From contig NZ_JACJSJ010000018.1 of the NCBI RefSeq assembly GCF_014698115.1, positions 1 through 64,000 of the forward strand: a DNA stretch of 64,000 bases, in the 5' to 3' direction. A model generated the notes under the pieces. That model did no database searches. It was not told the DNA's origin and saw only the letters and a program-made list of their open reading frames with translations. Below, in pieces: positions 4 to 52,020 of this stretch (its first letter is position 1; each line of letters starts with the position of its first letter). This DNA comes from Nostoc sp. FACHB-973. GTDB taxonomy: Bacteria > Cyanobacteriota > Cyanobacteriia > Cyanobacteriales > Nostocaceae. The position numbers and the translations under genes are program-made.

Positions 4-162
4 ATGTCTAACATTGCAATCTCTAACTTACGTCCTGCTGGTGCTGACTTGTTTCAAGATTCCGAAAACTTTTTACATGAATTGACAGAACAAGAAATCG
101 CGGATGTTTTAGGCGGTGCTAGAGTCATCATTTTATTTACAGCACTTTGCTTCGAGTGGTAA
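4..162 (+). CDS. Double-glycine leader peptide precursor, copy 1
   Basis: A 52-codon gene (ATG to TAA). Seen: an acidic leader of 38 residues ending in LTEQEIADVLGG, then a 14-residue hydrophobic core, ARVIILFTALCFEW. The hydrophobic positions before the GG pair are typical of leaders cut by C39 peptidases. The convergent operon at 812-6612 encodes exactly such a peptidase-exporter. The predicted mature product is therefore a very short secreted peptide with one Cys and one Trp, either bacteriocin-like or a signal. The upstream region lies outside the window, so its promoter cannot be judged. The core is much shorter than usual class II bacteriocins. Function is inferred, not shown. Confidence 0.85.
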   Translation: MSNIAISNLRPAGADLFQDSENFLHELTEQEIADVLGGARVIILFTALCFEW

Positions 163-201
163 GTATCTAAGTTCTAAAACTTAGAATTTAGATGAAAATC
201 C

Positions 202-228
202 CAGCCTAATGTAATCAAACTTGGGCTG
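202..228 (+). terminator. Imperfect hairpin after peptide copy 1
   Basis: CAGCCTAA and TTGGGCTG arms pair with one T-G wobble. It is the degenerate counterpart of the perfect terminator behind copy 2 and has no T-run, so read-through into copy 2 is likely. Confidence 0.45.
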
Positions 229-287
229 AACAACAAATAGCAATTCTCCAATCAACTCAAATCAATTTACTTAGGAGTAAACCTACT

Positions 288-446
288 ATGTCTAACATTG
301 CAATCTCTAACTTACGTCCTGCTGGTGCTGACTTGTTTCAAGATTCCGAAAACTTTTTACATGAATTGACAGAACAAGAAATCGCGGATGTTTTAGGTGG
401 TGCTAGAGTCATCATTTTATTTACAGCACTTTGCTTCGAGTGGTAG
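288..446 (+). CDS. Double-glycine leader peptide precursor, copy 2
   Basis: Second copy of the 52-residue precursor, identical in protein sequence to the gene at 4-162. Within the coding region I see only one silent change (GGC to GGT in the GG motif) and a TAG stop in place of TAA. The start is supported by a TTAGGAG ribosome site at 271-277, eleven to twelve bases before the ATG. The leader ends in VLGG and the predicted core is ARVIILFTALCFEW. The spacing of 284 bases between starts shows a tandem duplication. A perfect terminator hairpin follows at 502-532. It probably shares a transcript with copy 1. Export by the C39 ABC transporter at 3257-5986 is inferred from proximity and leader type. 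Confidence 0.88.
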   Translation: MSNIAISNLRPAGADLFQDSENFLHELTEQEIADVLGGARVIILFTALCFEW

Positions 447-501
447 TAAATACTTGTAAAAAGTATCTAACTTTTCAAACTTAGAAGTTAGATGAAAATC
501 C

Positions 502-532
502 CAGCCCAAGGCAATCAAGCTTGGGCTGTTTT
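502..532 (+). terminator. Rho-independent terminator of the peptide genes
   Basis: Perfect 9-bp stem (CAGCCCAAG / CTTGGGCTG) with a 9-base loop, followed directly by TTTT. It ends the transcript of the duplicated peptide genes. Confidence 0.7.
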
Positions 533-811: not shown

Positions 812-1549
812 TTAATTCAAAACTTTTGTAATTTCAACTTGAGCAACTTGTGGTTTTAGCCATTGCTCAAACAAATCTATGCCAATTTTATGGCGCAGTA
901 CATTATCCAATTGGGGTTGAATAATTTCTTCAACTAAAATCAGATGTATTCCTTTAGAAGTTACTATTGGTTTGAGAAGCTGTGGTGGCTTAGCAGCAAA
1001 AACAGCGGCAGAAATCTCTGGCTTTAAGTCTTTGCGGTACACTATCCCCCGATATCCGCTTTTTCGGCGTAATTCTTTATCCTGGATGTATTTGTGAGCA
1101 ACATCATAAAAACTGATCTCGCCTTCCTGAATGGCATAGAAAAGTTCTATTGCCAAGTCTTCATCATCTAGGACAACTTCATACATTACCACACCAACAT
1201 AATCGAGTTGATTTTCAAAAAAGTAAGGTTCAATTTTATCTAAAAATAGATGAGTTATTAACTTAGTAGAAAGAAGCCTGTTGTAGACAACTATTTCAAA
1301 ACCATCTAAAGACAAACCATGTTTTTCTAGCCACGCCCAGGTATCCTCAGCACTTTCTAGTTGATACATTAATCTGAATTTATCTGCTGCTTGCTGAAGT
1401 TCTTGACTTTCTACTGTGATGCCTACTGTAGCTGCTGCATTTTCAATAACTTTGCGATTAATAATCTCTTCAATTATCTCAGGAATTTTACAAGATAACT
1501 TGATTTGATTAAGAATATCTTCGTTGGTAATAGTGATAGATTCTGACAT
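812..1549 (-). CDS. Parvulin-like (SurA/PpiC type) peptidylprolyl isomerase of the peptide export operon
   Basis: About 245 residues. The N-terminal half is helical and SurA/trigger-factor-like. The C-terminal half contains a parvulin-like stretch, with a conserved-looking GYRGIVYRKDLKPEISAAVF segment and then KPIVTSKGIHLILVEE, the usual end of the rotamase fold. An upstream TTG would add five residues (MKKNI), but the ATG at 1549 gives MSESITIT and has GAAG upstream, so I prefer it. It is last in the operon HTH, ABC exporter, HlyD, isomerase. No signal peptide is visible, so it probably acts in the cytoplasm or as an exporter-associated foldase or escort for the leader peptide. Isomerase activity is uncertain because the domain is divergent. 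Confidence 0.8.
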   Translation of the reverse strand: MSESITITNEDILNQIKLSCKIPEIIEEIINRKVIENAAATVGITVESQELQQAADKFRLMYQLESAEDTWAWLEKHGLSLDGFEIVVYNRLLSTKLITHLFLDKIEPYFFENQLDYVGVVMYEVVLDDEDLAIELFYAIQEGEISFYDVAHKYIQDKELRRKSGYRGIVYRKDLKPEISAAVFAAKPPQLLKPIVTSKGIHLILVEEIIQPQLDNVLRHKIGIDLFEQWLKPQVAQVEITKVLN

Positions 1550-1655: not shown

Positions 1656-3182
1656 TTACAATTTCACACCTCCCTGCTGCAATTTCTTAAAGGGATCGAG
1701 TAGAAAATCAATAATTCGCCGCTGGCGTATAATCACTTCAGCTGTTGCTGTATCCCCAGGACGTAAGGGAATACATTTATTTGCTGAGGGAATACAATTC
1801 TGTTTTAGGGAAATATCTAAGTTATAAGCTGCCACTTTTCCATTAGGTGTATCTATCTCTGTGGTAGTAGGAGAAATTTTAATTAACTCACCTGATACAA
1901 TTCCATAATCTTGAAATGGATAAGCATCTAATTTAATTTTTACTGGCAGTCCTGTCCGCAAAGAACCACTTTCTGTGGTTGCCATTTGTGCCCGAATGAT
2001 TAGAGGCGAATTTAGCGATGCAATTTCGGCTACCATTGTCCCCGGTTGCACAACGGAACCAGCTTTTTCAATCGGTAGATGAAATAGTGTTCCACTAGTG
2101 GTAGCTCTGATTTCTCGTTGCCCTAACTGAAATCTTAATGATAGAATTTGTCTTTTATTTTGAGCAATTTCTGATTGTAATGAAGTAATGTCAGTCTCCA
2201 AGCTTTTCTGTTGTTCGGCAATTTTTAGCACGGCTAGCTGACCAGAACGAGTCAAAGTTTCATAACTTCTTTCTTGTTCTTTTAGCCGTAATCTAGCCTG
2301 TTCTATATCCGCATTAGTTTGGCGAATACTCCGTTCGTAACTACTCTTTTGTTCTGCCAAAGTTAATTTAGCTTGTTCAATATCTGACTTACTCTGTTCA
2401 TATAGTTTTTGTTTTTCTTTAGCTATATCTTCCTTTTCAACAACATTAATTTCTGGAACGACTCCTTCTTGTTTTAACTTGCTATAGCGTTCAACTTCCC
2501 GCTGAGTACTTATCAAACTACTCTCGACTATCTTACTACTAGTCCGACTATGTTCAAGAGTTTTCTGTGCTTGATTAACTTGAGCTAATTTTTCTTCTTT
2601 TTGTAATTCATAGGCATTCCTCAAAGCATCCAAATTCTGGCGTGCTTGATCGATTTGGGTTTGCTTTTCTAATTGTTGGGATTGATTTTGTTGCTGTTGA
2701 GTTGCTAAAGATACAAATATTTGATTTTTAGATGCATTTAACTGAGCAAGTCGATTTAATTGTCCCTCTAATTTATCCTGTGCCTGCTGCAAGTCTGCTT
2801 TGACAAGTTCGGATTCTAATACCAATAAAGTCTGTCCAGCCCTTACTGTATCACCTTCTTTGACTCGAATTTGGGCAACAGTTCCCGCCACAGCAGCATC
2901 GAGCTTAATTGTTTTTTCTTTAGGCTCAGTTCGCCCTCTTGCTGTACCAGTTTCATCAACTTTAGATAGCATTGCCCAAGGTAAAACTATAGACACAAAT
3001 ATCACTAAAAAATACAGTAATCCTCTTGTCCAAACCTGGGGAAAGCTATCAAGTGATTCCTTGGTAATTTCAGACCAATCATCAGTTGATTTGGCTGATA
3101 TTTCTGAAGGTAACATTTCCTGCTGAAATATTTCTTCTGGTACTGAGTTAGTCACTCGTCCATTCAATATAGTATCTGGCAT
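1656..3182 (-). CDS. HlyD-family membrane-fusion protein of the peptide exporter
   Basis: 508 residues. Layout: a cytoplasmic N-terminus of about 50 residues; one membrane helix near 55-72 (GLLYFLVIFVSIVLPWAML); a lipoyl-like half (VAGTVAQIRVKEGDTVRAGQTLLVLES, about 93-120); a long Q/K/E-rich coiled coil (about 130-345); then the second lipoyl half and a beta-barrel region (GTLFHLPIEKAGSVVQPGTMVAEIA, onward). This is the classic adaptor linking an inner-membrane ABC exporter to an outer-membrane channel. It lies 74 bases downstream of the C39 ABC exporter and is surely its partner. No TolC-like gene is in the window, so the outer-membrane component must be encoded elsewhere. Confidence 0.95.
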   Translation of the reverse strand: MPDTILNGRVTNSVPEEIFQQEMLPSEISAKSTDDWSEITKESLDSFPQVWTRGLLYFLVIFVSIVLPWAMLSKVDETGTARGRTEPKEKTIKLDAAVAGTVAQIRVKEGDTVRAGQTLLVLESELVKADLQQAQDKLEGQLNRLAQLNASKNQIFVSLATQQQQNQSQQLEKQTQIDQARQNLDALRNAYELQKEEKLAQVNQAQKTLEHSRTSSKIVESSLISTQREVERYSKLKQEGVVPEINVVEKEDIAKEKQKLYEQSKSDIEQAKLTLAEQKSSYERSIRQTNADIEQARLRLKEQERSYETLTRSGQLAVLKIAEQQKSLETDITSLQSEIAQNKRQILSLRFQLGQREIRATTSGTLFHLPIEKAGSVVQPGTMVAEIASLNSPLIIRAQMATTESGSLRTGLPVKIKLDAYPFQDYGIVSGELIKISPTTTEIDTPNGKVAAYNLDISLKQNCIPSANKCIPLRPGDTATAEVIIRQRRIIDFLLDPFKKLQQGGVKL

Positions 3183-3256: not shown

Positions 3257-5986
3257 TTACGCTGCCACCTGTAATTGCTGTTGATTAAGATAGAAATAAT
3301 GTCCCCGTTTCGCCATCAATTCTTCATGATTTCCACTCTCAATTAACACACCTCTATCTAGTACCAATATCAAATCCGCATTTCGGATCGTTGAAAGACG
3401 ATGGGCAATTACTAATGTGGTTCTTCCCCTAAGAATTGTGTTGAAGTTCTGCTGGATAATTCTCTCTGATTCCGTATCTAGATGGGAAGTTGCTTCATCT
3501 AAAACCAATAACTCAGGATTACCTAATAAAGCCCTGGCGATCGCTATTCTCTGTCTTTGTCCGCCAGATAACAATCCCCCGCCTTCACCAATTTGGGTTT
3601 CATACCCCATTGGTAACTTTTTAATAAATTCATCAGCACCCGCTAATTTTGCTGCCTGCATCACTTCTTCTAAAGCTGCCCCAGGATGCCCTAAGCTAAT
3701 ATTGTCTCGAATTGTGCCGCCGAATAAAAAGGTATCTTGATCGACTACCCCAACTTGTTGGCGTAAGGAACTCAAGGAAATGCTGGTAATATCTTGTCCA
3801 TCAATCAAAATTTTGCCATCTGTGGGAGGATACAATCCTAAAACTAATTTAGAAATGGTAGTTTTTCCAGAACCACTACGCCCCACCAGTGCCACCATTT
3901 GCCCCGGTTTTACTTCAAAGCTGAGATTCTCTAAAATATTCATCTCGCTTTCTGGGTGATAGCGAAAGGTCACTTTTTCAAAGCGAATATTTCCTTGAAG
4001 TCTGGGTAAATTTTGCCGTGGCTGGTGATGTAAATCTTCTTCTGGTTCTGCATCTAATACATCATTAATACGTTCTATAGCAATGACGACTTCTTGAAAC
4101 TGGTTCCACAATACAGTTAAGCGTTGAAAGGGCGTAATAATATTACCCAATAGCATATTAAATGCTACTAGTTGTCCAATGGTTAATTGGTCGTGAATAA
4201 CTTGGTAAGCCCCAAACCACAGCAAAGCAGTAGTCATCAGCGCTTGAATTGTGTTACTGAAAATTTGCAGCCGATTGCTAATAACTTGTCCAGCAAAATT
4301 AGTTTTTACTTCTTTATTTAATAACTCTTCCCAATGCCAACGTACTGTTTGTTCTACCGCCGTAGCTTTCACTGTCCGCACACCAGTTAGGGCTTCAATT
4401 AAGTAACTACCTTCTTTGGCGGTACCATTAAATATTTCTCTGGAAATTTTTTGTAAAAAAGGTGTGGCAATCAATGCTAGTAAGGCAAAAGGCGGAATTA
4501 TTAACAATGCCAGCAACGCCATTTTCCAGCTATACCAAAACATTAATCCGACATAGATAAAGACGGTGAGTAAATCTAAGAGGATTGATAATGCTTCACC
4601 AGAAAGAAAGCGTTGAATTTTACGGTTTTCTTGGACGCGAGAGATAATATCGCCGACGTAACGGGACTCGAAGAAATTCAAGGGTAGTCGTAGGGTATGG
4701 CGAATAAACCCTACAATTAGTGCCAAGTCTATGCGATTGGCTGTGTGGTCTAGGAGATATTGGCGCAACCCTGTCATGGCTACCCGGAACAGGTTAAACA
4801 TTAGCAACCCTATGCCTACGGCTGTTAAGGTGAGTTCCGATCGCTGCACCACTACCCGATCTAAAATTAACTGGGTGAATAAGGGCGTTACAAGTCCAAA
4901 TATCTGGATAAATACCGAAGCAATAAACACCTCCACCATCACTAAAGCGTGAGGCCTCATCAACTCAAAGAACTGCCAAAAGGGTGTAGAACTGTCTTGA
5001 GTCTCTTTCAACATCGCTGTCGGTTGCAGCAGTAATGTGTAACCAGTCCAATTAGCTTTAAATTCAGCGTGGCTGAGGGTGCGTTGACCGATCGCGGGAT
5101 CGGCTACAATTACCTGTTTAGGGGTAACTTCGTAGACAACGATGTAATGGTTGCCTTCCCAATGCACAATGGCAGGTAAGCTTTGCTTCGCTAATTGCTG
5201 AAGTCCAGCTTTTACAGGTCTTGTGGCAAAGCCAAGACTTTCCGCTGCTACTAATAATCCCCGCAAAGATGCACCATTACGGTCTACGTTGGCAATATCT
5301 CGTAAGCGATTGACGCTAAAGCGTTTTCCCCAATAGCGAGACACCATCACCAAACAAGCTGCACCACAGTCGGATGCACTCTGTTGGGCAAAAAACGGAT
5401 AACGCCGCGTCACTCGTTGCCATAAATGCCCTACTTGCTGAGTGGGATTAGGAAAATAAGCTTTGCTAATCTTCTTCCCGTGGGGTAAATCGGCTGGCTG
5501 TGACGAAATGTCTGTTTCATAATCCGTATTTGACTCAACTGCGTCCACAGCAGAGTTAGCTGATTCCTCCTGTTGGGGTGTGAGGGATAGTGCCCTAGCC
5601 CACAAATTTTCCCGAATTTGAGGATATTTAGCCATCAATGACGACAACACCCCACTGGGAATAAAGCATAGTTGCAGATTTACCGAAGCCCTGGCTGTGT
5701 AGGGCGGAAATTTTGCATCTGGGAACAAGGTACATTCCCCAAATGAGTCTCCAGTTTCTAAAGTAGCGATTAATTCATCGGCACTATCGAGCAATCTTAC
5801 CTTGCCAGCGATCGCAATATATATACCTGCTTCGGCTTCTGTTGCTTGCCAAAATTTACCGACTTTGGGGTTACTTTCTTTAAATTCTCGAAGATATTGT
5901 TGATATTCCTCTGTTGGAATAGAATACCCCAGGATATTGTTAAGCTGTTGTAGAGAAACCAACTGATTCGCTAGATGGTGTACCAT
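3257..5986 (-). CDS. cNMP-domain / C39-peptidase ABC exporter (leader-cleaving)
   Basis: 909 residues with three fused parts. Residues 1-135 form a cyclic-nucleotide-binding fold with a phosphate-binding-cassette-like run (GDSFGE at 79-84, TARAS near 97-101). Residues about 195-325 are a C39 peptidase with Cys207 (SDCGAAC), His280 (EGNHYIVVY) and Asp296 (ADP). Then comes a six-helix transporter domain and an ATPase: Walker A GRSGSGKTT (702-710), LSGGQRQ (805-811), Walker B LLVLDEATS with the Glu near 831, and the H-loop His near 862. All catalytic residues are present. It would cut double-glycine leaders and export the core peptide. HetC of Anabaena has a comparable domain set. The cNMP-like domain suggests gating by a nucleotide. 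It sits 32 bases after the HTH gene. Confidence 0.95.
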   Translation of the reverse strand: MVHHLANQLVSLQQLNNILGYSIPTEEYQQYLREFKESNPKVGKFWQATEAEAGIYIAIAGKVRLLDSADELIATLETGDSFGECTLFPDAKFPPYTARASVNLQLCFIPSGVLSSLMAKYPQIRENLWARALSLTPQQEESANSAVDAVESNTDYETDISSQPADLPHGKKISKAYFPNPTQQVGHLWQRVTRRYPFFAQQSASDCGAACLVMVSRYWGKRFSVNRLRDIANVDRNGASLRGLLVAAESLGFATRPVKAGLQQLAKQSLPAIVHWEGNHYIVVYEVTPKQVIVADPAIGQRTLSHAEFKANWTGYTLLLQPTAMLKETQDSSTPFWQFFELMRPHALVMVEVFIASVFIQIFGLVTPLFTQLILDRVVVQRSELTLTAVGIGLLMFNLFRVAMTGLRQYLLDHTANRIDLALIVGFIRHTLRLPLNFFESRYVGDIISRVQENRKIQRFLSGEALSILLDLLTVFIYVGLMFWYSWKMALLALLIIPPFALLALIATPFLQKISREIFNGTAKEGSYLIEALTGVRTVKATAVEQTVRWHWEELLNKEVKTNFAGQVISNRLQIFSNTIQALMTTALLWFGAYQVIHDQLTIGQLVAFNMLLGNIITPFQRLTVLWNQFQEVVIAIERINDVLDAEPEEDLHHQPRQNLPRLQGNIRFEKVTFRYHPESEMNILENLSFEVKPGQMVALVGRSGSGKTTISKLVLGLYPPTDGKILIDGQDITSISLSSLRQQVGVVDQDTFLFGGTIRDNISLGHPGAALEEVMQAAKLAGADEFIKKLPMGYETQIGEGGGLLSGGQRQRIAIARALLGNPELLVLDEATSHLDTESERIIQQNFNTILRGRTTLVIAHRLSTIRNADLILVLDRGVLIESGNHEELMAKRGHYFYLNQQQLQVAA

Positions 5987-6018
5987 GAATCTCTAAATCT
6001 TTTGCTAATTTTGTGAAT

Positions 6019-6612
6019 TTAAAAGTTAATAGTTAAAAGTTCGGAATTTTCCCGGATATTTGCCGATTTGAGGTCACTAATCAAGATTTTGGAACTCGTA
6101 GCCTGTTCGATGTTATTTGCTTGAGGATTGTTAGCTTTTGGTCGTGTGGATAATCCCATCTGTTTGAGTAGTCGCTTGAGATGGCGATCGCTTACTTCAA
6201 TCCCAAATTCTTTTGCCAAATGTTTCCCTAACCAGTTTGCTGTCCACCGCCGAAAAGAATAGCCATGATCGCGGGGACTACTATTAATCAACTCTTTCAA
6301 ACGTTCTAAATACTCGTCATTGACTGCCTTCGGGCGACCAATGGGGCAATCTTGCCATTGATGCGCCATCCCCGTCCGGGCTATGTGCGTCCAATGCCTT
6401 GCTGTTGCTGGACAACATCCCAAAATTTGACAAATCTGGGTTTGAGTTTTTCCCTCATCTGCCAACAACATGATTTCAATGCGCTGTCGGTAAGACTCTG
6501 GTAAACTTTTCTGTAAATTTACTAGCAGTAATTTACGCTGAAATGATGTTAAATACTTACTAGTAGTCCCATTTGTATATTTTGTTGGAATTTTCGTTTC
6601 ACAGTCAGACAT
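6019..6612 (-). CDS. HTH protein derived from an IS630-type transposase, first gene of export operon
   Basis: About 197 residues from the ATG at 6612; an in-frame TTG at 6645 would give 208. It has a helix-turn-helix near the middle (DEGKTQTQICQILGCCPATARHW), a GRPKAV linker, and a second winged-helix-like part (RRWTANWLGKHLAKEFGIEVSDRHLKRLLKQMG). This is the N-terminal DNA-binding half of IS630/Tc1-type transposases. The DDE nuclease half is absent and no stop or frameshift interrupts it, so it looks like a domesticated regulator rather than a broken transposon. It stands 32 bases before the exporter and probably controls the operon. The low-complexity tail (about 178-197) is of unknown use. 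Confidence 0.75.
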   Translation of the reverse strand: MSDCETKIPTKYTNGTTSKYLTSFQRKLLLVNLQKSLPESYRQRIEIMLLADEGKTQTQICQILGCCPATARHWTHIARTGMAHQWQDCPIGRPKAVNDEYLERLKELINSSPRDHGYSFRRWTANWLGKHLAKEFGIEVSDRHLKRLLKQMGLSTRPKANNPQANNIEQATSSKILISDLKSANIRENSELLTINF

Positions 6613-7085
6613 ATACGTACAATCACTTAATCTAAAGACACGCAAACATCTTATAATTGATGCAAAATTTAGCAGATATCTCTAAAATCAGTAGAAATAA
6701 CTAGAGATATTGCAAAAACTAGTTTTACCTTGTATCTGTATTAATTATCACTTTTAGCTTTTCATTTTATGCAAAAAAGAAAATTTTCAGTAAGTGATAT
6801 TTATTACAGCAGCTTTTAGATGTTGCTTTTTGAGGTATAGGTTAAGCTACAAATCGTATTTATATAAATTCCGAAAATAGTGGCTCGATCTTAATAAACT
6901 TTTTGTAAAGATAAATGAATTTCTGGTGAACAGAGAAAAAAGGAGTTGTGGCGGGATCGCTGTCACTACGGATGAAAATTTCTTTGAGAGCGGTTTTCAA
7001 TTCCATAGACCACACGCATTAGGGCACAATTATTGCGCCCCAACAATGAACTGTATTCTGTGGATGTGAGAATTGCTGTAACGGG
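6613..7085. other. Gap upstream of export operon
   Basis: AT-rich, no gene seen. Being the only sizeable gap before the HTH gene, it should hold the promoter of the minus-strand export operon, but no clear -10/-35 pair stood out. The part near 6940-7080 lies downstream of the kinase gene. Confidence 0.4.
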
Positions 7086-8249
7086 TTAAACTTCCAGTAA
7101 AGGCAGGGTGACGGTGAAGGTTGTACCGACTCCAACTTGACTATTGACTACAATCTCGCCTCCGTGTGCCTCGACACACTTTTTGGCGATCGCTAGTCCC
7201 AAGCCGGTACCAGGAATGTTTCCCACGTTGTCTGCACGCCGGAAAGGCTCAAACAGTCGCTTTTGGTTTTCTTCAGGAATGCCAATTCCCCAATCTTGAA
7301 CTCGGAAAATTACCGCTTCTTCCTGGCCAATTAGTTCAAAGCGCACTATCCCGCCTGGTAATGAATACTTAATAGCATTGCTAAGTAAATTGCCCAAAAT
7401 GTGCCGTAGCAGGCTTTCATCCCATAGTGCCTCGCCTAATTGCCCAAAACTGGCGAACATCAAACTTAAATGCTTGTCATTAGCAGTTAATTGAGCTTCA
7501 TTGACCAGTTGACGGCAAAAAGCTTCTAAGTCTAAACAGACGAGTTCACACCGCAGTCTACCAGAATCAGCTTTACCGATGAATGTAACTTCATCCAATA
7601 GCTGCGCCATATTTTTGATCGCTAAGCGAATCATTTGCAAATGATTGAATTTTTTCTCTTTGGTCAATTTTTCATCGTGATTTTGTAGCAATCCAGCAGC
7701 CAAGAGAATAGTATTTAGGGGATTGCGGATGTCATGGGAGAGCATCGACACAAATTCAGATTTGAACTGATTGAGTTCTTTAGCTTTCACCAGTTCAGCA
7801 GTTCGTTCTTCAACCCGAGTTTGTAACGTTTGATTGACCGTGCGTAATGATTCTAAAACCTGCTTGCGCTCGATCGCATAACGTAGCGATCGCACCAACA
7901 CATCTACATTTACCTGTCGCTTAACTAAATAATCTTGTGCCCCTTGACGTACTGCCTCAATTGCTAGTTCTTCATCATTCGTATTTGTGAGTACAACAAT
8001 TGGTGTACTTGGCGCTTGACCAATCAGAGGAGGCAAAGATGATAATCCTTCGCTATCAGGTAGAGTTAAATCTAACAAAATAACATCATAATCACACTGA
8101 CTTAGTTCCTGGAGTGCTTCCTCCAATCGCTTCACATGAACCAAAGTAAAGTCTTGCGACTGGGCTTGCATGAGAAACTCTTGTAACAACCTAGCAGAAG
8201 CGAGGTTATCCTCAATTAACAAGATTTTTACTGAGTAGCTCACAACCAT
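7086..8249 (-). CDS. Hybrid response regulator / sensor histidine kinase
   Basis: 387 residues. The N-terminal receiver (about 6-125) has phospho-acceptor Asp60 (DVILLD) and Lys110. A linker coiled coil (EERTAELVKAKELNQ) leads to HisKA with His172 (SHDIRNPLN), followed by HATPase_c with N (NLLSNAIKYS), G1 (DWGIGIPEEN) and G2 (GTGLGLAIAKK) boxes. With no membrane segment or sensory domain, its input is phosphotransfer to the receiver. It is transcribed in the same direction as the phytochrome and Rcp genes and lies about 200 bases downstream of them, across an STRR array. It could therefore act as a second step in that light pathway, which is inference. Confidence 0.93.
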   Translation of the reverse strand: MVVSYSVKILLIEDNLASARLLQEFLMQAQSQDFTLVHVKRLEEALQELSQCDYDVILLDLTLPDSEGLSSLPPLIGQAPSTPIVVLTNTNDEELAIEAVRQGAQDYLVKRQVNVDVLVRSLRYAIERKQVLESLRTVNQTLQTRVEERTAELVKAKELNQFKSEFVSMLSHDIRNPLNTILLAAGLLQNHDEKLTKEKKFNHLQMIRLAIKNMAQLLDEVTFIGKADSGRLRCELVCLDLEAFCRQLVNEAQLTANDKHLSLMFASFGQLGEALWDESLLRHILGNLLSNAIKYSLPGGIVRFELIGQEEAVIFRVQDWGIGIPEENQKRLFEPFRRADNVGNIPGTGLGLAIAKKCVEAHGGEIVVNSQVGVGTTFTVTLPLLEV

Positions 8250-8302
8250 AATCTTCGGGTTTCACCCCCTATTGCTCCTCTATCTTTAAAATGGGCATTG
8301 AG

Positions 8303-8372
8303 AGTTAGGAGTTAGGAGTTAGGAGTTAGGAGTTAGGAGTTAGGAGTTAGGAGTTAGGAGTTAGGAGTTAGG
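8303..8372. repeat. STRR array, ten copies of the heptamer AGTTAGG
   Basis: Ten uninterrupted 7-base units, followed by a pyrimidine-rich imperfect repeat (TCTCCCTCATC-like) to about 8450. It separates the rcp gene from the hybrid kinase. Heptameric STRRs are known from Nostocales. Confidence 0.95.
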
Positions 8373-8452
8373 AGTAAAATTTTCTCCCCATCTCCCTCAT
8401 CCCCCTCATCTCCCTCATCTCCCCAGTCTCCAATCCCCAGTCCCCAGCCCCT

Positions 8453-8899
8453 TCAATCAGATGGTAATGTCACAGTACAAAGCCAAAAATCTTCAATACT
8501 CTTGACAATTTGAAATAATTGGTTGAGGTTGCGGGATTTTGTGATATAGCAATTTACATGCAAATCGTAGCTGTGAAAAATATCATCTTCATTTTTTGAG
8601 GTTGTTAACACAACAACTGGAATACGTTTTAGTACTGGGTCGGCTTTAATTTCCGCCAGCACTTCTCGACCATCTTTTTTGGGCAAATTCAAATCCAGGA
8701 GGATGAGGTCAGGGCGGGGTGCATTGGCATATTCGCCTTCTTGGCGTAAATAAGCCATAGCATCTATGCCATCCCTGACAATCACTACCTCGTGTGGCAC
8801 CGAACTATTTTTCAATGCTTCTTGAATTAAGCGGATGTCGGCTTTATTGTCCTCGACTAAAAAGATGGTTTTGTGTTTTTCTTCCGTTTCTACGCTCAA
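8453..8899 (-). CDS. rcpA: Rcp1-like phytochrome response regulator
   Basis: A single receiver domain of about 148 residues. It has an acidic cluster (VEDN), phospho-acceptor Asp in [13 protein letters not shown], a Thr in VVVLTTS, and, at the usual Lys position, ITKS. I place the start at TTG 8899, because a strong GGAGG (8908-8912) lies eight bases before it and the resulting length matches Rcp1 proteins. A GTG at 8947 would add 16 residues without such a site. The gene begins 56 bases inside the end of the phytochrome gene, so the two are translationally coupled. It should receive phosphate from His538 of that kinase. Confidence 0.9.
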
Positions 8900-50178: not shown

Positions 50179-52020
50179 ATGCTTTTCAAAGTTCCCCAAC
50201 AACTCCGCAAACTGCTAAAAGCTACCAGCTTCTGGCAGGAAAATTATTTGATATTGCGAGAATTTACACACTTTCGCAAGATTGCAACTTTAGCTCTCAT
50301 ATTTTCGATTCTTGCAGCAACATTTGAAGGTGTCAGTATTGGTTTCCTGCTGTCATTTTTGCAAAGCTTAACTAGTCCCAATGCTCAACCTGTCCAGACA
50401 GGAATAGGATGGTTTGATATTTGGATCTTGGGAGCTAATACATCGGCACTTAATCGTCTATATCGCATATCTTCGCTGATTTTACTCAGTACTTGGCTAC
50501 GTGTTGCCTTCAATTATTTTGCACAAGTTTATATTGAATTATCTCAATTGCATCTTGGCGATCGCTTACGTAAACAAATTTTTGAACAATTACAAGCCTT
50601 ATCGCTAAGTTACTTTTCCAAAACTCGTTCTGGTGAGTTGATTAACACAATTACCACAGAAATTGAAAAAATCAGACAAGGTTTTAGTGGCGGAGCATTT
50701 TTATTTACTAGAGGGCTAACAACTGTTGTCTACTTAATATCAATGTTTTTGATATCATGGCAGCTAACTGTAATTTCAGCACTACTATTTACACTTTTAG
50801 GTGTAGGATTATCCAACTTAAATGCCAGAGTCAGAGAATCAAGTTTTGGCCTGACAACTGCTAATGCTAATTTTACATCAACAGCCGTAGAATTTATTAA
50901 TGGCATTCGCACTGTTCATTCCTGTGGTACTCAAGAATTTGAGCGCCAGCGTTACTACAAAGCTAGCGACAAAATAGTAAGTAGTACAACTAAAGTTGTC
51001 TTCACTTGGACACTTGTCAAGCCAATTGCTGAAGGGGTAGCTACTACAGTCTTGGTGGGAATGATTATTTTGGCATTTACTAGCCTGGTTAGTAATGGAA
51101 CACTACAAGTTGCTTCTTTACTAACATTTTTCTTTGTGCTATTTCGTTTTATCCCATTCGTTCAAGATATTAATGGTACAAGAGCATTTCTCAGCACTTT
51201 ACATGGCTCAGCAGATAACATTAAAAACCTCTTAAAAAGTGATGATAAAAATTATTTTCAAAATGGACATCTTAAATTTAATGCTTTAAAAAGCTCAATC
51301 AATCTAGTATGTGTGGATTTTGGCTACGACGATAACAATATAGTGCTACATAATATTACCCTAACTATTGAAAAGGGAAAAATGACGGCATTAGTCGGAG
51401 CATCTGGGGCTGGCAAAACAACACTTGCTGATTTAATTCCCAGATTTTATAATGCTACAGAGGGAAATATTTACATCGATGAAATTGATGTCAGATTGTT
51501 TGAAATTAACTCTCTACGTCGCAAAATAGCTGTTGTTAGTCAGGATACTTTTATCTTCAATACCACTGTTTGGCAGAACATTGCTTATGGAACTCCAGAA
51601 GCTACGAATGATGAAATTCAAGAAGCTGCTAAATTAGCGAATGCACTAGAATTTATTTTAGAAATGCCCGAAGGTTTTAATACCCAATTAGGAGATAGGG
51701 GTGTTAGATTATCTGGAGGACAAAGACAGCGAATTGCTATTGCGCGGGCGCTACTAAGGAACCCAGAAATTTTGATTTTAGATGAAGCAACCAGCGCCTT
51801 AGATTCTCTATCAGAACGCTTGATTCAAGATTCATTAGAAAAGCTATCTGTTGGGAGAACAGTAATTGCGATCGCTCACCGTCTTTCTACTATTGCTAAA
51901 GCAGATAAAGTCGTGGTACTCGAAGCAGGAAGGATAGTAGAACAGGGTAAATATCAAGAACTGCTCGGACGCCAAGGCAAGCTTTGGGAATATCACCAGA
52001 TGCAATACCATAATTCGTAA
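50179..52020 (+). CDS. hepA: HepA, ABC exporter for heterocyst envelope polysaccharide
   Basis: 613 residues from ATG 50179 (MLFKVPQQLRKLLKAT), the position where Anabaena HepA starts; a TTG at 50164 is less likely. Half-transporter: six membrane helices (about 40-320), then an ATPase with Walker A GASGAGKTT, signature RLSGGQRQR, Walker B LILDEATSALDS and H-loop AHRLST. Segments such as FWQENYLILREF, LAATFEGVSIGFLLSFLQSLTSPNAQPVQTGI and FFFVLFRFIPFVQDINGTRAFLSTLHGSADNIK look close to HepA as I recall it. Needed for the envelope polysaccharide that protects nitrogenase from oxygen. The final HNS and stop come from an AATTCGTAA repeat. Confidence 0.93.
   Translation: MLFKVPQQLRKLLKATSFWQENYLILREFTHFRKIATLALIFSILAATFEGVSIGFLLSFLQSLTSPNAQPVQTGIGWFDIWILGANTSALNRLYRISSLILLSTWLRVAFNYFAQVYIELSQLHLGDRLRKQIFEQLQALSLSYFSKTRSGELINTITTEIEKIRQGFSGGAFLFTRGLTTVVYLISMFLISWQLTVISALLFTLLGVGLSNLNARVRESSFGLTTANANFTSTAVEFINGIRTVHSCGTQEFERQRYYKASDKIVSSTTKVVFTWTLVKPIAEGVATTVLVGMIILAFTSLVSNGTLQVASLLTFFFVLFRFIPFVQDINGTRAFLSTLHGSADNIKNLLKSDDKNYFQNGHLKFNALKSSINLVCVDFGYDDNNIVLHNITLTIEKGKMTALVGASGAGKTTLADLIPRFYNATEGNIYIDEIDVRLFEINSLRRKIAVVSQDTFIFNTTVWQNIAYGTPEATNDEIQEAAKLANALEFILEMPEGFNTQLGDRGVRLSGGQRQRIAIARALLRNPEILILDEATSALDSLSERLIQDSLEKLSVGRTVIAIAHRLSTIAKADKVVVLEAGRIVEQGKYQELLGRQGKLWEYHQMQYHNS

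Follow-up and report, generated by a model that had tools for sequence, protein, structure and literature searches.

What do two very short, identical genes at the first bases of a cyanobacterial contig produce? The window analysed here was a stretch of 64,000 nucleotides from Nostoc sp. FACHB-973, namely bases 1-64000 of contig C90 of a genome in 263 contigs. The original prediction placed two 52-codon genes for one double-glycine precursor at its start, and both their coordinates (4-162 and 288-446) and the identity of the two proteins were verified. Each 52-residue protein ended in LTEQEIADVLGG followed by ARVIILFTALCFEW, and at the DNA level the copies differed in one silent codon (GGT/GGC) and in the stop codon. 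We consider it likely that the 14-residue core of both ORFs, as part of a probably secreted peptide, becomes a single-ring lanthipeptide of the class V type. The features of the locus were as follows.

4..162, plus strand: copy A of the precursor gene, encoding 52 aa (38 of leader and 14 of core), aligning to the third of four copies in the same-species genome G117
164..228, plus strand: two RNA hairpins between the copies, a 14-bp stem and then an AGCC/GGCT stem, without a T run
273..277, plus strand: AGGAG, 10 nt ahead of the ATG of copy B and probably its ribosome-binding site
288..446, plus strand: precursor gene copy B, protein identical to copy A, core ARVIILFTALCFEW, predicted ring Thr8-Cys11
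464..528, plus strand: paired hairpins after the last copy, then TTTT, a weak terminator-like end of the array
812..1549, minus strand: PpiC/SurA-like peptidyl-prolyl isomerase, convergent to the array (PF00639, 8.3e-9; TIGR04500, 2.2e-17, below its cut-off)
1656..3182, minus strand: HlyD-family adaptor (TIGR01843, 3.9e-65)
3257..5986, minus strand: long-type exporter with cNMP-binding, C39 peptidase and ABC parts (PF03412, 4.4e-41; PF00005, PF00664, PF00027)
6019..6645, minus strand: helix-turn-helix protein, encoded just upstream of the exporter gene (PF13565 and PF13592, both above cut-off)

The contig began inside the precursor array: the window started at base 1 of C90, and the same-species genome G117 had four copies of the identical protein, with starts 283-284 bases apart. 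The two copies of the window aligned to the last two of these four. Three copies were also present in genome G104, and at least three in G113, counting one cut by a contig end. A DNA search of the window's own genome for a continuation of the array on other contigs returned only the window itself and matches at E 0.19 or worse. Eleven copies from four genomes varied at 11 sites, of which one fell in the stop codon, and the sole non-silent change was V>I in the leader. Since all codon changes but one were silent, the reading frame was real, and the pattern indicated that the coding sequence was under purifying selection. Lack of frame conservation in related genomes had been named in advance as a finding that would count against the genes, and the opposite was observed.

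Relatives of the precursor were found in many genera. All 13 candidates of the first protein search scored E 4.3e-9 or better, and precursors with a similar core occurred in records named Nostoc, Microcystis, Moorena, Limnospira and others. The suggestion that such genes were too short for gene calling was partly right, with the qualification that several relatives of 52-56 aa were already entered as 'hypothetical protein' in NCBI/JGI sources. Scans of the precursor against Pfam and NCBIfam, and of four relatives against Pfam, gave no family over cut-off. A precomputed Pfam label, PF27893, was attached to some relatives (P0007, P0016, P0019, P0024, P0043 and others).

The signals expected around the two genes were present in part. 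A likely ribosome-binding site was present for copy B, and that of copy A was missing because the contig starts 3 nt before its ATG. As to the terminator, paired hairpins did follow each copy, but a short T run stood after the last one only, and a terminator scan of G117 left the place corresponding to 464..528 unflagged. The hairpins between the copies folded with z = -6.5, none of 200 shuffles being as stable, and they were possibly processing or stabilising elements. The same pair was present in G104 (6814-6893 of its locus, L125), where stem 1, compared by eye, differed from that of the window by a U-A to G-C change affecting both sides. The spacers of the arrays in genomes G204 and G208 also folded better than shuffles and differed in sequence from those of the window. 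Rfam gave nothing on the hairpins and one sub-threshold match at 739-831. For the array promoter in G117 there was a weak consensus match only, and such matches were fewer than in shuffles.

The leader, ELTEQEIADVLGG, fitted the double-glycine motif published for such peptides, M(R/K)EL-X3-E(I/L)-X2-(I/V)-X-G(G/A) (PMC3140520, as given there), from EL onward and departed from it at the first two positions. A leader of this consensus and a C39 peptidase-transporter, the two marks of a C39-processed double-glycine peptide, thus occurred together, and the claim of a duplicated precursor adjoining a C39 exporter was borne out by the leader motif and the exporter domains. The exporter is expected to cleave behind the GG of the leader and to carry the core out. 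The helix-turn-helix protein, with transposase-like DNA-binding domains, accompanied 22 of the 23 exporters in a set of 32 loci and occurred in 24 of the 78 leader loci described below (43 with an exporter); it is a possible regulator of the cassette. At 50599-52005, the window contained another ABC transporter segment that was related to this exporter, at 34% over 479 aa.

The genes for the likely chemistry lay beyond the window edge. In G117, the array was preceded by a gene for an APH-type kinase (6480-7634 of its locus, L124) and then by one for a HopA1-domain protein (7666-8766), and downstream, in convergent orientation, there followed the PpiC-type isomerase, the HlyD adaptor, the cNMP-binding/C39/ABC exporter and the helix-turn-helix gene. 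In the window's own genome, a kinase gene and a HopA1 gene were found at the end of contig C258, the last bases of which could be matched to G117 as far as some 490 bases ahead of the first copy there. Adjacency of the pair to the array in this genome therefore follows from synteny with G117. In 21 of the 32 loci, the genes for kinase, HopA1 protein, isomerase, HlyD adaptor and exporter formed one group with this convergent arrangement, a count that is not a frequency because the loci had been picked for an array or a HopA1 match.

The two enzymes resembled the dehydratase pair of class V lanthipeptides. The kinase matched PF01636 (3.5e-12) and the HopA1 protein PF17914 (8.9e-59), that is, stand-alone genes of the LanK and LanY families stood beside the precursor in G117. 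The best NCBIfam family of the kinase was LxmK (NF038156, 1.8e-24), but its 86.4 bits were below the curated threshold of 315, and it was therefore not filed as an LxmK equivalog. The HopA1-like protein matched the PDB chain 9dk1_B at 3.9e-7. Its predicted structure (pLDDT 78.5) had as best PDB matches the LxmY chains, namely chains B of 9dk1, 9dk2 and 9dk3 (E 4.8e-14 to 1.1e-13, TM 0.56-0.69), entries of the lexapeptide dehydratase complex LxmKY. The kinase model was weak (pLDDT 63.8) and too poor to carry claims on its fold alone; LxmK chains ranked 2, 4 and 5 (E 1.9e-6 for the second), and the first-ranked structure was an MTNK-DHOM entry, another kinase fold. The key residues reported for the cacaoidin lyase CaoY, Arg187, Lys219, Arg229 and Tyr236 (PMC9486802), corresponded to R206, K237, R247 and Y254 of the lyase, each at least 97% conserved among 89 sequences. 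The spacing of the Lys, Arg and Tyr was identical to that in CaoY, and R206 stood 31 rather than 32 residues before the Lys. The kinase retained HNDLKLNN and DWE. Thus, given the kinase and lyase genes, the LxmKY fold matches and the conserved lyase residues, the precursor was most likely of the class V type.

Other class V genes were looked for as well. LanC (PF05147), the mark of class Vb, gave no match at E <= 0.001 in the 263 contigs of the window's own genome. Between the kinase and the helix-turn-helix gene of L124, the ORFs of at least 90 aa included a single PF01636 gene, no second kinase-like gene and no unassigned ORF, and neither LanX nor LanD was recognised in this interval; upstream of the kinase, the check covered ORF5603, by NCBIfam only. 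This ORF (5603-6034 of L124) encoded a conserved 144-aa protein, seen ahead of the kinase gene in several loci of Nostoc and without an NCBIfam match.

Apparent in-frame stops in several HopA1 matches were considered as possible recoding and rejected, as they were absent on realigning seven loci. Six of these seven had been flagged before, and the apparent stops lay past query residue 363, at the normal end of the protein. In genome G111, the HopA1 frame adjoining the array was cut short at 166 aa.

The association of leader and enzymes was followed over 78 leader loci, which were obtained with two leader patterns; out of 130 stretches, the 80 that scored best in tblastn against the complete precursor of the window were retained, and because of this selection the few loci with a similar core rank first. 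HopA1 was present in 61 of the 78, and in 59 of these 61 the kinase was adjacent on the same strand. The expectation that the leader lies next to C39 exporters in cyanobacterial genomes held for 43 of the 78 loci, with no exporter in view in the rest. In 14 loci neither HopA1 nor an exporter was in view (eight were shorter than 12 kb, and the six full-length ones were real misses). Among the 36 loci of at least 20 kb, HopA1 was found in 29 and the exporter in 27. Positions 12001-64000 of the window, used as a small control, contained one weak relative of the exporter and none of the kinase or of HopA1.

The same association was visible across the phylum. In a sample of 386 genomes, the precursor model at 1e-10 identified 46 genomes and HopA1 at 1e-20 identified 53; HopA1 was present in 45 of the 46 precursor-positive genomes versus 8 of the 340 others. 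Outside the window's family, where the 43 genomes to be excluded were taken from the order of the two listings, the numbers were 9 of 10 versus 1 of 333. P values for these contrasts were too small, since the genomes are related to each other; the contrast was nonetheless large. Within the family both were nearly universal, the leader occurring in 178 of 217 genomes at E 0.01 and HopA1 in 214 of 217 at 1e-8.

A core array that was not beside the kinase/lyase pair was found in three genomes. In G204 and G208 it stood next to a psbB-like gene, so labelled from a reading of the start of its protein, and both the pair and the exporter were absent from the fetched stretch; in G206 it adjoined the exporter only. 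The exporter of G104 and of G113 was on another contig. The window's own genome carried further members of the family. Namely, contig C117 had four tandem precursors with the same type of leader (5602-8493), the cores of which were longer, rich in Ser, Thr and Tyr and free of Cys, and this cluster adjoined another kinase gene and a HopA1 gene (8788 to the end) that was truncated where the contig stops. A third kinase/HopA1 pair was located on contig C38.

Evidence for a ring came from the cores themselves. The core of the window had one Thr (Thr8) and one Cys (Cys11), three residues apart, which is a ring-forming spacing for class V; cores of relatives included GRVQILWTAVCVEW, AKVSILWSAICVEW, VKVEILWTALCVEW and WRGFRILWTALCVQW. 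Among the matches listed (120 of 894 proteins, plus the first search) there were 118 distinct similar cores. Cys was present in 104 of them and missing in 14, several of which retained Thr. Ser or Thr stood at -3 of the Cys in 88 of the 104, against 15.1 expected (0 of 2000 shuffles), which was not independent evidence for the motif because the search alignment itself contained it. Fourteen more had Ser or Thr at -4 only, two had neither, and 69 of the 88 were 12-18 residues long. The leader loci gave the same picture when every leader-type ORF was counted (221 ORFs, 213 distinct cores): 33 of the 40 distinct Cys-bearing cores had Ser or Thr at -3 (10.0 expected), and 18 of 40 had [ST][ST]xxC (1.9 expected), neither number being reached in any of 2000 shuffles. 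In a thinned set the values were 24 of 30 and 12 of 30. Five cores in which Gly took the place of the Ser/Thr (P0065, P0075, P0100, P0104 and P0119, judged by eye) were also without Cys at +3. At the same time, 173 of the 213 leader-family cores had no Cys at all, and lanthionines are therefore not the constant outcome of this machinery; on Cys-free cores it perhaps gives something else, such as linear dehydrated peptides.

Six records (P0098, P0113-P0116 and P0121, three of them named Microcystis) had the same leader and two SITICW- or SISICW-like repeats, in which each Cys had a Ser four positions and a Thr or Ser two positions before it. This subfamily is a candidate two-ring relative.

Taken as a pathway, the preferred reading runs as follows. 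The short gene array would yield one identical precursor from a transcript with paired hairpins after each copy. The LanK-like kinase would likely phosphorylate Thr8, and the LanY-like HopA1-domain lyase would likely remove the phosphate to leave dehydrobutyrine; in cacaoidin, Ser/Thr are described as phosphorylated by the kinase and the phosphate as eliminated by the lyase. Cys11 would then probably add to give a methyllanthionine ring, Thr8-x-x-Cys11. As the search of the genome for LanC was negative, the ring may close spontaneously or with the help of the kinase and lyase. A precedent was described for rosin, where Dha-Dhb-x-x-Cys closes without a cyclase (PMC12291118), and it serves as an analogy only, because in rosin two dehydro residues precede x-x-Cys, and in the window core a single residue there can be dehydrated. 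The C39 exporter would likely cleave after Gly38 and release the 14-mer through the HlyD adaptor and an outer-membrane channel, perhaps with assistance from the PpiC-type isomerase, and outside the cell the peptide might serve in competition or signalling. For the modified hydrophobic 14-mer, the computed [M+H]+ was 1663.903, compared with 1681.913 for the unmodified one.

The alternative that survives best, and which we regard as rather unlikely, is that the product is an unmodified double-glycine signal or biofilm peptide cut by the C39 peptidase, and that the kinase and lyase serve other precursors. The exporter does adjoin the array, the arrays of G204 and G208 stand alone in their fetched stretches, and Cys is missing in some relatives. 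Moreover, EbfG1-4 and PteB of Synechococcus elongatus, four double-glycine peptides and their C39 peptidase-transporter, show that such a route works in a cyanobacterium (PMC4997328), but those peptides mature at 6-7 kDa and a dehydratase goes unmentioned in the part of that paper drawn on here. The presence of the pair by the leader family in most loci, and a Ser/Thr-Cys lanthionine spacing far above chance, speak against this alternative. The original prediction leaned the same way in suggesting that the core, odd in having one Cys and one Trp, could be a plain small signal peptide. This part of it was not supported, since Thr8, Cys11 and the Trp or Phe preceding the Thr were the common motif of a large core family and the array went with a dehydratase pair of LanK/LanY type lying beyond the window edge.

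Quite improbable, in our estimate, is a second alternative, in which Thr8 is dehydrated or left phosphorylated, the ring is absent, and the Cys is free or forms a disulfide-linked dimer. It would agree with the missing LanC-like gene and with the large Cys-free share of the family cores, whose loci usually have the enzymes nearby. On the other hand, the exact -3/-4 spacing of Ser/Thr and Cys would then have no evident reason, and the five cores with Gly in place of Ser/Thr lack the Cys as well.

A double-glycine leader with a C39 exporter is a hallmark of class II bacteriocins, and a classical unmodified bacteriocin of this class with a dedicated immunity gene would explain both, but we consider it very improbable: the core has only 14 residues, the dehydratase pair is present, and the ORF lists of the first 8 kb of the window and of the four-copy locus contained no obvious immunity gene. 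The weakest alternative, spurious ORFs in what is after all a tandem repeat at a contig end, was in effect refuted by the almost exclusively silent changes among the 11 copies and by the relatives in many genera, and its probability is negligible.

Parts of the system had been described before. The locus corresponded to the published description of Family 1A (Eyles et al. 2021, PMC8153245), which is restricted to cyanobacteria and has a conserved double-glycine leader, several precursors, HopA1 and a phosphotransferase; that genome-mining survey listed 570 such precursors from cyanobacteria, none with a known product. As far as the text drawn on goes, Family 1A precursors are typically non-identical and have no conserved core Ser/Thr/Cys, whereas the copies here were identical and had a conserved [ST]xxC. 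The putative class V LanA of type B (Liang et al. 2022, PMC9486802) were likewise encoded by short cyanobacterial reading frames adjoining LanK/LanY genes and contained Cys and Ser/Thr towards the C-terminus, but the section on type B gives no core motif or spacing rule. It is possible that the short-core precursors overlap with this type. The bacteriocin clusters of groups I, II and VI (Wang et al. 2011, PMC3140520) had the same long-type C39 ABC transporter with CAP_ED, the HlyD and SurA genes and arrayed precursors, and differed in that a HopA1/kinase pair is unmentioned in the portion used here.

With the known class V systems, as presented in the parts of the papers on cacaoidin, lexapeptide, pristinin and rosin that were consulted (PMC9486802, PMC7794033, PMC12291118), the locus shared the stand-alone LanK (PF01636) and LanY (PF17914), the key lyase residues, the predicted fold and a core with Ser/Thr and Cys. 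It differed in the 14-aa core with one Thr and one Cys and in the C39 exporter. Known class Va peptides carry AviMeCys via LanD and LanX and class Vb uses LanC, according to the same sources; here, LanC was not found in the genome, and LanX and LanD were not recognised between the kinase and the helix-turn-helix gene of L124. Thus, the leader family with HopA1/phosphotransferase (Family 1A, type-B LanA) and the exporter types (Wang et al. 2011) were already known, and the short [ST]xxC core subfamily with its ring-spacing rule appears to be new. Literature searches, with subscription papers, supplements and figures outside their scope, returned no description of the [ST]xxC motif or of such a spacing rule.

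A wider reading can be offered tentatively, namely that these loci form a third, cyclase-free branch of class V, in which a fixed chassis of leader, LanK, LanY, C39 exporter, HlyD and PpiC works on cores that change freely. Within it, and to be taken just as tentatively, the small cores may give lanthipeptides of mostly 12-18 residues with a single four-residue W/F-[ST]-x-x-C ring made without LanC or LanX. Their role, again as a conjecture of the same standing, may be that of a cell-to-cell factor released at high dose from identical tandem genes.

According to the parts consulted of a 2025 review, class V lanthipeptides have so far come from actinobacteria only (PMC12328550). If our interpretation is true, the Nostoc peptide would be an unusually simple lanthipeptide and among the first of class V outside that group. 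With a single Thr and a single Cys in 14 residues, the core would be a very simple substrate for LanK/LanY and for ring closure without a cyclase, and the ring-spacing rule would tell which Family 1A cores become lanthionines and which stay linear. Since precursors with similar cores occurred in records named Nostoc, Microcystis, Moorena, Limnospira and others, these peptides may matter in nature.
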